A program made the position numbers and the translations under genes. This document shows, in pieces, positions 27,579 to 31,076 of a DNA stretch of 64,000 bases. The notes under the pieces are model-generated. The model was not told the origin of the DNA and did no database searches. It worked only from the letters and a program-made list of their open reading frames with translations. Origin of the DNA: Methylorubrum sp. B1-46 (GTDB lineage Bacteria > Pseudomonadota > Alphaproteobacteria > Rhizobiales > Beijerinckiaceae); contig NZ_CP088247.1 of NCBI RefSeq assembly GCF_021117295.1, positions 4,541,001 through 4,605,000 on the forward strand, given 5' to 3'. The first letter of the stretch is position 1. Every line of letters starts with the position of its first letter.

Positions 27579-29075
27579 CTACGCGGACGCAAAATTCTCC
27601 GGTAGATCGGCGGATTCAGACGTCTCGACCGCCTCGATCGCGGTCGCGAGGCCCGCGAACAGCACCGGCGCGTAGGATGTCTCCCGCCAAGCGCCGTCCG
27701 GCGCGTCCGGCGGATTGCCGCGTTGCAGCGCCTTCACGGTGCAGGCTTGACCGCGGAAGGCGAGGCGCCCGTCCGGCTCGTGCCGCAGCGCCATCAGCGT
27801 GGCGGGGAGGGCGAGGCGCTCCGGCTTGCCGAGCACGAGAGAGAGATCGCCCGCCGTCCCGCGCCGTCCGGAGAGCAGTGCCGTCTCGTCGAAGACGATC
27901 GTATCGACCACCGTGTCGAGCCGCAGGCTCTGCGGCAGGCCCACGGCGCGACTGCGGCCGGGGAGGCGGGTCGGTGCCCGGTGCACTAGGGCGACCGAGC
28001 GCAGATCCGCCGGCATGTCGCGGCCGGCGAGGTTCTTTTCGAGGAAGGCGGGAGCGACCAGATGGGTCGGCCCCGGCCGGCGCAGGGCCGCCGCGAAGGC
28101 TGCCCCGTCGAAGAGCGGCAGCGTTTCCAGGCTCGCGCCCGCCACGAGGGCGGCGGCGAGCCCGGTGGCGAGGCCGCGCAGGTCGTGCGGGGCGATCAGA
28201 CTGAGGATGCGCTCGGCGGGGGCGACCCGCATCGCCACGAGATGCGCGGCGGCGGCCGCCACCACCGATTCGCCGCTGCGGTAGACCGGCCGCTCGGGAT
28301 CGCCTCCGACGAAGCTGATGAGGCCGGCGGATTCGGGCGCCGGTCCGGTGGGCTCTCCGGCGGGGCCGTCGAGAACGAACCGGTCAAGGTTGATCACCCC
28401 GTCCGGCACGTCGGGGCCGAAGGCAGCGAGGTAGCGCAGGCCGAAATAGCGCGCGGCGACATTGCAGAGGCGTTGCGCGGGTGCGGCGGAGCCGAGCCGG
28501 GCCTGGGTCAGAACCGCGCTCAGCGCCACGTTCTGCGCCGCGGCGAGCAGGCGCTCCTCGTCCCAGGAGACCGGCAGGAGGCAGGCGACGTGGCCGGCGG
28601 CCTCGACGGCGAGGATCGCCAGCGCGCTCTCGGCCGAGCCCGGCAGGCACAGGCCGATGCGGCTTCCCGGCGGCAGGCGCCAACTGCGCAGGCCGCGGGC
28701 GAGGCGCTCGACGATCTCGGCGGCGGCGGCGTAGGTCCAGGTGATGGCAGGCCGGTCGCTCCAATCCGGCTTGTCGGCAGGATCGACGACCGCGATCCGG
28801 TCGGGATGGCGCCGGGCCGTGGCGGTCAGCAGGCTGCCGAGGCTGACACGCCTCTGCGGCGCGGCGGCCTGTACCCGAGGCGGAGCCTCGTCGGGGGCCG
28901 CGTCCGTCGCCAAGCCCGCGGGCCTGTCGGACGCATCCTTCGAAGCCTGCTGCGCGGCCCCTTGCGCGGCCTCTTGCAAAGCGCCCTGCAAGGCGCGTTG
29001 CAGGGCCCCTTGCAGAGCGTCCTGCAAGGCCCGCGGCGACGCCTCAGCTTGCGTGATAGCCCGTTGCGCCGACAC
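27579..29075 (-). CDS. Divergent AMP-binding-like protein with ALQ repeats, probably inactive
   Basis: A 498-residue protein resembling the N-terminal domain of acyl-CoA/AMP ligases (TYAAAAEIVERLARGLRSWRLPPGSRIGLCLPGS, then VEAAGHVACLLPVSWDEERL). The phosphate-binding TSGTTGxPKG loop is replaced by LISFVGGDPERPVYRSG, and the C-terminal catalytic domain is short. It probably cannot adenylate in the usual way. Residues 15-45 are a tandem ALQ-D/G/R repeat encoded by 12-bp repeats (28970-29030). The GTG start at 29075 follows GAGGGCGGG. The gene is divergent from the ethylene-receptor-like kinase, 194 bp away. Its function is unknown. Confidence 0.65.
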   Translation of the reverse strand: MSAQRAITQAEASPRALQDALQGALQRALQGALQEAAQGAAQQASKDASDRPAGLATDAAPDEAPPRVQAAAPQRRVSLGSLLTATARRHPDRIAVVDPADKPDWSDRPAITWTYAAAAEIVERLARGLRSWRLPPGSRIGLCLPGSAESALAILAVEAAGHVACLLPVSWDEERLLAAAQNVALSAVLTQARLGSAAPAQRLCNVAARYFGLRYLAAFGPDVPDGVINLDRFVLDGPAGEPTGPAPESAGLISFVGGDPERPVYRSGESVVAAAAAHLVAMRVAPAERILSLIAPHDLRGLATGLAAALVAGASLETLPLFDGAAFAAALRRPGPTHLVAPAFLEKNLAGRDMPADLRSVALVHRAPTRLPGRSRAVGLPQSLRLDTVVDTIVFDETALLSGRRGTAGDLSLVLGKPERLALPATLMALRHEPDGRLAFRGQACTVKALQRGNPPDAPDGAWRETSYAPVLFAGLATAIEAVETSESADLPENFASA

Positions 29076-29269: not shown

Positions 29270-30526
29270 ATGCTCGAACTTCTGCGGCGGCTGTGGGAGG
29301 TCGAGAATCTTTCGCCCCACGGCATCTGTCTGCTCTGGCGCCCGGAGCTGATCTGGACGCACGTCGTCTCCGACAGCCTGATCGCCTTCGCCTATTTCTC
29401 GATTCCCGTCGGCCTGGCTTACTTCGTGTCCCACCGCCGGGACGTGGTGTTCGGCTGGATCTTCTGGTCGTTCGCGGTGTTCATCACCGCCTGCGGCGCG
29501 ACGCATCTCATGGCAATCTGGACGCTCTGGGTGCCGGATTACGGGCTGGAGGCTGCGGTCAAGCTCCTGACGGGCTTGGCCTCCATCGGCACGTCGGTGG
29601 CGCTCTGGGTCCTGATGCCGAAGGCGCTGACGCTGCCGTCTCCCACTCAGCTCCGGCAGGCCAACGAGGCGCTGGAGGCGCGCATCCGGGAGCGCGACGC
29701 GGCGCTCGCCGCCTTGGAAGCCGCCAATGCCGAGCGCCAGCGCGCCGAGGAAGCGCTGCGCCAGAGCCAGAAGATGGAGGCGATCGGCCAGCTCACCGGC
29801 GGCGTGGCCCACGACTTCAACAACCTGCTCAACGTGGTGCTGCTCAACCTCGACCGGGTCGAGCGCGGCCTGCCCGAGGAGAGTCCCCTGCGCAAGCGCC
29901 TGGGCGATGCGATGAAGGGCGCCGAGCGGGCGGCGACGATGACGCACAAGCTGCTGGCCTTCGCCCGCCGCCAGCCGCTCTCGCCGGTGAGCACCGACGT
30001 CAACGCCCAGATCGCCTCCTTCGCCGAGTTCCTGGGCGGCACGATCGGCTCGCGGATCCGGCTCGAGACCGATCTCGCCCCGAACCTGCCGCGGGTGAAC
30101 GTCGATCCCAACCAGTTCGAGAACGCGATCCTCAACCTCGCGGTCAACGCCCGCGACGCGATGCCGGAGGGTGGGACCCTGACGCTGGCCACCCGGCTGC
30201 TGCCGGGGGGCGAGGGGCTTGCGGTGGAAGTGTCAGACACCGGAACCGGGATGACGCCGGAGGTCGAGGCCCACGCCTTCGAGCCGTTCTTCACCACGAA
30301 GCCGGTGGGGCAGGGGACGGGCCTGGGGCTCAGCCAGGTGTTCGGCTTCGCGCAGCAATCGGGCGGCAACGCCACCTTCGTGCGCGGCGACCGGCCCGGC
30401 ACGACGGTGCGCCTGTCCTTCCCGGCACAGGGGTCGGTTGCGAACCGTCCGGCACCGACGCGGCCAGCACCGGGCGCCGAGTCCGATTTCGCGCCGCTGA
30501 TGCCACCGGTGGTGGCCGCGGGCTAG
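29270..30526 (+). CDS. Ethylene-receptor-like histidine kinase
   Basis: A 418-residue membrane histidine kinase. The N-terminus has three hydrophobic helices whose sequence follows plant ETR1: SDSLIAFAYFSIPVGLAYFV and FITACGATHLMAIWT. Asp35, Tyr42, Ile45, Pro46, Cys75 and His79 correspond to ETR1 Asp25, Tyr32, Ile35, Pro36, Cys65 and His69 with a constant offset of 10. The last two are the copper ligands of the ethylene site. There is no GAF domain. A coiled coil (about 128-165) leads to the H-box (GGVAHDFNNLL, His181), an N-box (LNLAVNARDAM) and ATP lid motifs SDTGTGM and GTGLGL. A response regulator follows. Sensing of ethylene or copper is inference. Confidence 0.9.
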   Translation: MLELLRRLWEVENLSPHGICLLWRPELIWTHVVSDSLIAFAYFSIPVGLAYFVSHRRDVVFGWIFWSFAVFITACGATHLMAIWTLWVPDYGLEAAVKLLTGLASIGTSVALWVLMPKALTLPSPTQLRQANEALEARIRERDAALAALEAANAERQRAEEALRQSQKMEAIGQLTGGVAHDFNNLLNVVLLNLDRVERGLPEESPLRKRLGDAMKGAERAATMTHKLLAFARRQPLSPVSTDVNAQIASFAEFLGGTIGSRIRLETDLAPNLPRVNVDPNQFENAILNLAVNARDAMPEGGTLTLATRLLPGGEGLAVEVSDTGTGMTPEVEAHAFEPFFTTKPVGQGTGLGLSQVFGFAQQSGGNATFVRGDRPGTTVRLSFPAQGSVANRPAPTRPAPGAESDFAPLMPPVVAAG

Positions 30527-30527
30527 A

Positions 30528-30661
30528 ACATCGTCCTGAAAGGCGCCCGCCGGTTTTCGGGAAAAGGCGATGCGCGAACGAGGGGCTGTAGCATCGTCCC
30601 GAAAGGTGGCCGCCGGCTTTCGGGAAAAGACGATGCGCGAACAAGGGAATAGAGCATCGTC
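30528..30661. repeat. Palindromic dispersed repeat, two tandem copies plus a half copy
   Basis: Copies at 30528-30573 and 30591-30636 share GCATCGTC, CCGAAAG, a ccgccgg core, CTTTCGG, gaaaa and GACGATGC, forming a hairpin with an internal bulge. A half copy, GCATCGTC, sits at 30654-30661. They begin just after the kinase stop codon and fill most of the gap before the response regulator gene. Another copy is at 26508-26553. Confidence 0.8.
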
Positions 30662-30713
30662 GCGACGGGGTGCGGTGGCCGTCACGGCAGCGAGAGGGAG
30701 GGAGAGGCGAGGG

Positions 30714-31076
30714 ATGATCGACAAGCGGACGGTGCTCGTCGTCGAGGACGAAGAGATGCTGCTCAACGCCGTGACCATGGAGTTCGAGGATGCCGGCTTT
30801 GCCGTGCTCAGCGCGGGCACCGCGGAGGAGGCCTATGGCCTGCTCCAGGGGGCCGAGCGGGTCGATCTCCTCTTCACCGACATCCGCCTGCCGGGCCAAC
30901 TCGACGGCTGGGACCTCGCCGAACGCGCCCGCCTGCTCCATCCGGCCCTGCCGGTGATCTACGTGACCGGCTACAGCAGCGAGCAGCCCCGGCAGGTGAG
31001 CGAGAGCGTGCTGGTGATGAAGCCCTACCGCATGACGGCGATCATGAGCGCCGCGCAGCAATTGGGGGTGGGGTAA
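30714..31076 (+). CDS. Single-domain response regulator (CheY-like)
   Basis: A 120-residue receiver domain with no output domain. The acidic pocket is VLVVEDEEM, the phospho-acceptor Asp lies in LLFTDIRLPG, the Thr in VIYVTGYSS, and the Lys in VLVMKPYRM. ATG 30714 follows a purine-rich GGGAGGGAGAGGCGAGGG. It lies downstream of the ethylene-receptor-like kinase in the same direction, separated by 187 bp of palindromic repeats, and is its probable partner. In many related kinases this receiver is fused to the C-terminus. Confidence 0.88.
   Translation: MIDKRTVLVVEDEEMLLNAVTMEFEDAGFAVLSAGTAEEAYGLLQGAERVDLLFTDIRLPGQLDGWDLAERARLLHPALPVIYVTGYSSEQPRQVSESVLVMKPYRMTAIMSAAQQLGVG

Follow-up and report, generated by a model that had tools for sequence, protein, structure and literature searches.

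Our study addressed the question of whether a gene pair of Methylorubrum sp. B1-46 encodes an ethylene receptor and, if so, whether such a receptor could serve the perception of plant ethylene on leaves. The stretch of DNA that was analysed, hereafter the window, comprises 64 000 nucleotides and lies on the 5.39-Mb contig of a 5.50-Mb genome, in which one gene for a kinase with an ethylene-binding domain (EBD) was found, the next match having an E value of 0.38. A reading made from the sequence alone had proposed an ethylene-receptor-like kinase with a separate receiver, and such a pair is indeed found in Methylobacterium/Methylorubrum, the best named relative being M. aminovorans, with a sensor 98 % identical to that of the window. 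The window pair is a further member of the already known family of bacterial ethylene receptors and, judged from its sequence, is probably a two-gene two-component system whose sensor would be a copper-dependent ethylene-binding domain, a reading to which we give a probability of roughly three in four.

The gene pair and its surroundings

The kinase and receiver genes (Table 1) are flanked on either side by genes for AMP-binding enzymes, as identified by Pfam. In the divergent gene (window positions 27579–29075, minus strand) the Pfam match spans residues 84–205 only, and the N-terminus carries an Ala-Leu-Gln-rich repeat. The length of the receiver is counted from the chosen ATG, and its open frame could begin at 30570. 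The first copy of the 63-nt repeat overlaps the 3′ end of the kinase gene, and the tandem copies contain a hairpin. The core of the repeat was found at 101 sites in the genome with ≤2 mismatches, whereas its reversed pattern gave 5; the element is thus dispersed in the genome and has no specificity for the EBD kinase–receiver system.

Table 1. Features of the ethylene-receptor-like gene pair, in window coordinates, and loci of free-standing ethylene-binding domains
Feature	Position	Strand	Basis
EBD histidine kinase gene, 418 aa + stop	29270..30526	+	ORF list, Pfam, AlphaFold model
Parts of the EBD kinase in order: ETR1-like three-helix membrane domain, helical linker, DHp, ATPase			
Residues 16–20, PHGIC, before helix 1	29315..29329	+	P-H-x-x-C motif
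Ethylene-binding domain, residues 26–122	29345..29635	+	Pfam ETR1_N, residue alignment
Linker, residues 123–167, without PAS/GAF	29636..29770	+	Pfam, AlphaFold model
HisKA + HATPase_c kinase core, to residue 387	29771..30430	+	Pfam, structure searches
Two copies of 63-nt dispersed repeat, intergenic	30520..30645	+	Repeat search
Single-domain response regulator, 120 aa + stop, without output domain	30714..31076	+	ORF list, Pfam
Free-standing EBD loci	L075:5788-10103; L186–L191, L196, L197 (wider: L200–L206); L074:6693-9576		

The sensor domain

A search with an ethylene-binding-domain profile, which the sequence-only reading had proposed as a check, resulted in a match of Pfam ETR1_N to kinase residues 26–122 (E=1.1e-37), scoring 128.6 bits against a curated cut-off of 27 and covering the Pfam model from end to end. 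The likeness to plant ETR1 that had been claimed for the N-terminal 90 residues was borne out, but its extent was not, as the domain ends at residue 122. Among 385 genomes of the class, with our own counted, the same profile matched 28, as against 0 of 14 control genomes, which excludes a chance match.

All six ETR1 residues named in that reading (Asp25, Tyr32, Ile35, Pro36, Cys65 and His69) were found at an offset of exactly +10, and a seventh, Ile62, is also present as Ile72, giving Asp35, Tyr42, Ile45, Pro46, Ile72, Cys75 and His79 in the window (7/7). The list of seven consists of those six and of Ile62. Wang et al. 2006 is reported to have defined the residues of ETR1 that are required for ethylene binding, Ile62 among them. 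Lys91 of ETR1 aligns with Lys98 of the window, with a gap in the alignment, and in a pairwise BLAST of the ETR1 N-terminus against the window sensor the two were 35 % identical across 101 columns (E=5e-18). Passages of PMC11819568 state that seven residues of ETR1 are required for ethylene binding and name D25, C65, H69 and K91.

AlphaFold predicted helices at residues 25–54, 59–87 and 91–120, followed by a single helix (125–200) into the DHp (mean pLDDT 76.9, pTM 0.43, 25 sequences). In this model, the sensor is three predicted membrane helices joined to the kinase and, with helix 125–200 reaching the DHp, nothing but a helix would connect the two. No solved structure of the sensor domain was found by sequence search with the window domain or with ETR1, the former yielding just designed Pizza proteins via repeated short matches, and the fold search returned histidine-kinase entries in the 50 matches listed of 516. 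The P-H-x-x-C motif preceding helix 1 was present in 80/80 of the best named loci (the best 80 of 265, described below) and in AzoEtr1 of Azospirillum brasilense. It lies outside the seven ETR1 binding residues and is possibly a second metal site or a disulfide site.

The kinase and receiver

Pfam identified HATPase_c (E=1.7e-17) and Response_reg (E=4.1e-15), while HisKA, at 26.7 bits, fell 0.2 below its cut-off of 26.9. The phosphoacceptor His181 lies within GGVAHDFNNLL and, by Pfam and motif reading, the two-component set is complete, with an acceptor His, an ATPase domain and a receiver with the conserved Asp and Lys. The kinase had been described as free of GAF and PAS domains, and neither was reported by Pfam at E up to 1; the receiver is, as had also been described, a separate gene downstream of the kinase.

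When compared to NF010076, an NCBIfam hybrid kinase model of 540 positions, the kinase matched positions 146–402 (237 bits) and the receiver positions 416–526 (63 bits), both scores being far below the cut-off of 631. As the two proteins match successive parts of the model, they resemble a split hybrid kinase with its own receiver. This suggests that the window pair is a hybrid kinase whose receiver is a separate gene, and that the pairing of the two is likely. Among solved structures, the best match to the kinase core by sequence was the CckA chain 5idj (E=2.4e-45), which was also first in the fold search, with 39 % identity.

Distribution and layout among relatives

In the genus, a match was found in 44 of 111 species at E up to 0.001, leaving 67/111 without one. 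The sensor was at least 62 % identical to that of the window in 42 of the 44; the remaining two were G032 and G030, the latter having a hybrid kinase with an altered ethylene site. Weaker second copies with altered sites were seen in G048 and G050, and G051 also has a second weaker copy. In 41 of 42 genomes a receiver homologue shared contig and strand with the sensor and lay no more than ~1.6 kb away. The exception was G073, in which the kinase frame, close to a contig end, stops at 272 aa (L116) and the receiver match is on another contig. The binding residues and the Lys were complete in all 30 genus loci read, own locus counted.

Four genomes (G035, G048, G054 and G030; loci L080–L083) were considered as examples of a sensor swap on the same receiver; this was rejected, and as far as seen they are not swaps. 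Their receiver relatives are 53–64 % identical to the window receiver, and at E 1e-4 nothing in the 7-kb stretches around these loci matched the kinase core of the window.

Beyond the genus, a sample of the family produced matches at 1e-10 in 65 of 397 genomes and 18 of 43 genera. The class sample contained 29 loci besides our own, of which 27 were aligned and two were unalignable; all seven residues and the Lys were present in 20/27, and the site was incomplete in the other seven (L039, L043, L054, L055, L056, L058 and L061). In named genomes, scanning yielded 265 confirmed stretches, the best 80 of which were retained, with sensor identities of 59–98 %. As the patterns used were derived from close relatives, this set is biased towards the type found in the window; it consists partly of the same genomes as the genus and class samples, overlaps with the 30 genus loci and may omit the window's own record. 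The genera represented include Methylobacterium, Methylorubrum, Bradyrhizobium, Pseudolabrys, Microvirga, Beijerinckia and Methylocapsa, as well as Phenylobacterium, Tardiphaga and sphingomonads. The seven residues and the Lys were complete in 79/80 of these loci, L113 having Ser at the position of Pro46. Methylorubrum extorquens has a protein of 417 aa whose sensor domain is 95 % identical to that of the window.

Among these best 80 of 265, the receiver was separate and downstream in 47, fused in 29 and neither in four (L116, L129, L133 and L138). The kinases of the 47 two-gene loci are 327–428 aa, too short for an additional PAS domain, and four of the 47 were included in a Pfam scan. That scan, which covered 10 of the 80, revealed EBD-kinase, EBD-kinase-receiver, EBD-PAS-kinase-receiver and EBD-PAS-HWE kinase forms, the EBD of L138 (Phenylobacterium sp. 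J426) being joined to a PAS domain and an HWE-family kinase. A tree was made of the sensor domains of the window and 76 loci (77 in all; L087, L116, L133 and L138 were omitted), with every unfused row, including L129, labelled as split. The fused and split forms were clustered on it, with 2 changes compared to ~23.5 in shuffles, but its deep forks are weak. The sequence-only reading had presented the layout, a sensor fused directly to a kinase with the receiver in its own gene, as special. We found otherwise, as AzoEtr1 also has a separate receiver and the two-gene form without PAS makes up 47/80 of the best loci; given the many EBD architectures and the common two-gene form, the layout of the window is ordinary within the family.

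Selection and natural loss

Pairwise comparison (NG86) of the window with nine relatives inferred dN/dS values of 0.04–0.37 for the sensor, with dS reaching 1.06 for the farthest relative. Values were below 1 for both sensor and kinase core in 9/9 comparisons, and the sensor value was below that of the kinase core in 8/9, the exception being L098. The sensor is under purifying selection.

Loss was also observed. G032 (L069) has a kinase and a receiver that are 67 % and 59 % identical to those of the window, together with a degraded sensor that has lost the equivalents of Asp25, Tyr32, Pro36 and Lys91 and kept those of Cys65 and His69, which indicates that the kinase–receiver chassis can outlive the ethylene site. 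In M. rhodesianum (L077/L087), the sensor is intact and the kinase frame is broken, at 327 aa (P0008, four member sequences). An intact sensor was likewise accompanied by a kinase frame of 272 aa in L116 and of 243 aa in M. suomiense P0019; another M. suomiense record (L095) has 418 aa. G032 and M. rhodesianum are natural negative controls.

Free-standing ethylene-binding proteins

Two matches in small alphaproteobacterial genomes were proteins of 138 and 140 aa that consist of the EBD alone. A search for small EBD proteins of ~77–245 aa found 126, which include some fragments and contig ends; PF25487 was present in each of the 120 listed, and the named matches include Micavibrio and Maricaulis. 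In the order of one source genome (Micavibrio-like), 13 of 142 genomes matched, at 14 places, eight of which were taken as free-standing EBDs by frame length. The next gene matched the separate membrane kinase of L075 in all eight loci, and the free EBD of L074 is likewise followed by a separate membrane kinase. In L075 and five further loci, as far as the frames were read by eye, a single-domain receiver and a receiver-kinase then follow. The ethylene site lacks its Cys in two of the eight free-standing EBDs (L205 and L206).

A SCO1/SenC homologue was found directly upstream of the free EBD in three of the eight loci, supported by Pfam in L075 (E=6e-41) and by tblastn in the remaining pair (51 % and 41 %), and in three others the upstream gene resembles an ABC1/UbiB-type kinase by frame reading. 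A free EBD beside a copper chaperone fits, post hoc, with the idea of copper loading as the old core of the domain. A literature search for an ethylene receptor in Micavibrio found no paper.

A broader view, which we offer tentatively and would not back at even odds, is that the EBD is a portable alphaproteobacterial cassette placed on unrelated kinases and receivers, CckA-like here, of another type in Azospirillum and of the HWE type in Phenylobacterium. It would be a free membrane subunit of ~140 aa with a separate kinase in Micavibrio-like bacteria, would receive copper via a neighbouring SCO1-type chaperone in some lineages and, in methylotrophs, would link ethylene to a receiver in very few steps and without dependence on ACC deaminase.

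Ethylene as the probable ligand and alternative readings

Homology, intact binding residues, an intact kinase and receiver and conserved pairing together make a copper-dependent ethylene receptor the most likely reading. Counting against it are the identity of just 35 % to the plant receptor, a full site that is less constant in the class sample, the degraded sensor of G032, the broken kinase frame of M. rhodesianum and the 67/111 species of the genus that lack a match. As we envisage it, the kinase would be a dimer in the inner membrane, with Cu(I) held by Cys75 and His79 of helix 2, Asp35 and Lys98 positioning the copper site and ethylene binding to the copper. Binding would shift both helix 3 and the helical linker, which connects straight to the DHp helix, and this would alter the autophosphorylation of His181. 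A guess drawn from ETR1 and AzoEtr1 is that ethylene would probably lower the activity of the kinase. The phosphoryl group would pass to the small receiver encoded just downstream, and the receiver, having no DNA-binding part, would act via protein contact or as a phosphate relay.

The domain could instead sense periplasmic copper (or silver), with ethylene binding incidental and the system adjusting copper handling. This would agree with the Cys and His kept by G032 when other site residues were lost and with the SCO1/SenC gene upstream of the free EBD in three of eight Micavibrio-like loci, yet it would leave unexplained why all seven ETR1 residues and the Lys are conserved in 79/80 of the best named relatives and why AzoEtr1, 59 % identical in its sensor, binds ethylene. 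We consider it improbable, as the flanking genes are AMP-binding enzymes and probes for SCO1, DUF3299 and ABC permease had no homologue in the window at E 1e-4. A general copper neighbourhood was rejected, as the same probe search, covering the window and 118 loci with uneven flanks, found, apart from the two loci that had supplied the probes, a single SCO1 homologue, located in L076 at a distance of ~6.3 kb from the EBD.

Similarly improbable is that another small hydrophobic or unsaturated gas is sensed, or that light or redox is integrated, with ethylene as a weak ligand: the complete ETR1 site of the window sensor and the lack of any additional photosensory or PAS domain in the kinase speak against it, despite relatives from habitats without obvious plants and a SynEtr1 that is also light-responsive (passages of PMC11819568). 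A decaying or silent remnant is highly improbable, as both window genes are open with their motifs kept, all nine comparisons give dN/dS values below 1 for sensor and kinase core alike and the repeat, two copies of which separate the genes, is dispersed over 101 sites, even if M. rhodesianum, G073/L116 and G032 have a broken kinase frame, a 272-aa frame and a degraded sensor, respectively.

Plant ethylene and ACC deaminase

Perception of plant ethylene on leaves is treated here as a hypothesis because the relatives of the window sensor include groundwater MAGs and an isolate named Glacieibacterium frigidum, because 67/111 species of the genus have no match and because the genome has no ACC deaminase of its own above the curated family cut-off (best score 235 bits, compared to 392). 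In the genus, acdS exceeded the cut-off in 13 of the 42 sensor-bearing genomes, compared to 58 of the 69 others, which include G030 and G032 (p=3e-8); this test counts related species as independent. A positive link between receptor and ACC deaminase was therefore rejected, as the association runs the opposite way; the two tend to occur apart in the genus, probably as a clade effect, and this speaks against an ethylene programme common to both. In addition, passages of PMC3990490 describe a synthetic leaf community, with M. extorquens PA1 as one member, in which Variovorax alone shifted when the plants were ein2 mutants insensitive to ethylene, a result that counts against the ethylene reading.

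In the literature searched, no paper was found by title on an ethylene receptor of Methylobacterium, and the main family surveys lie outside that search. To our knowledge, the surveys of bacterial ethylene receptors likeliest to list Methylobacterium are Lacey and Binder 2016 and Carlew 2020. In the excerpts of a 2025 review of Methylobacterium, the word 'receptor' occurs once, for methanol taxis, and one article treating the ethylene receptor and ethylene-binding domain mentions Methylobacterium once. We do not claim that the receptor type of the window is unreported.

If ethylene is bound, a leaf-associated and genetically tractable group would become a test bed for leaf bacteria reading plant ethylene. 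A possible dependence of methylobacterial leaf colonization on ethylene perception would then be directly testable, using one deletion and the species that naturally lack the domain or carry it in degraded form.

Comparison with known systems

Hybrid kinases of the CckA/PRK13557 type have a kinase core that resembles that of the window, whereas the receiver of the window is separate and the input is an EBD. Tyr514, Lys518 and Trp523 of CckA, presumably its c-di-GMP contacts, read Phe, Gln and Asn in the window (5idj alignment). The plant ETR1 family has the three-helix ethylene domain in common with the window (35 % over 101 columns, 7/7 residues), but ETR1 has a GAF domain, which the window kinase lacks, and the window has the N-terminal PHGIC motif. 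A plant-derived gene is unlikely, as the identity is 35 % to ETR1 compared to 59 % to AzoEtr1 and 59–98 % to the 80 named loci. Plant receptors signal mainly to a Ser/Thr kinase, along a path that does not depend on the His kinase, according to passages of PMC11819568.

The output domains of bacterial EBD proteins are described, in passages of PMC7700396, as ranging 'from simple to complex'. Parts of PMC11819568 describe SynEtr1 of Synechocystis as an EBD kinase that signals, as in the window, to a separate response regulator; SynEtr1 perceives light as well, and a small RNA gene is activated by its regulator, whereas the window kinase has no photosensory domain and the window receiver has no output domain.

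The sensor of AzoEtr1 from Azospirillum brasilense Sp7 is 59 % identical, without gaps, to window residues 16–145 (130 residues) and shares its numbering (Asp35, Cys75, His79 and Lys98). It was read from a plasmid region of Sp7, starting at the forward-primer core given in the paper; the paper's reverse primer site was not found in this region, and its excerpted text describes the cloning of AzoEtr1 from another strain (PMC11819568). When produced in Pichia, AzoEtr1 residues 1–130 bind 14C-ethylene, and ethylene is predicted to inhibit the AzoEtr1 kinase, indirect evidence being cited for SynEtr1 (excerpts of PMC11819568). AzoRR-etr1 is a single-domain receiver of 135 aa that overlaps the end of the AzoEtr1 gene and is thus separate, as in the window. 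However, AzoEtr1 has 525 aa and a PAS domain (PMC11819568, in part), compared to 418 aa and no PAS in the window, and identity falls to just 29 % for the kinase and 35 % over 84 columns for the receiver. The window pair was therefore rejected as an orthologue of the whole AzoEtr1 system, and the low identities indicate that its kinase and receiver come from another branch.
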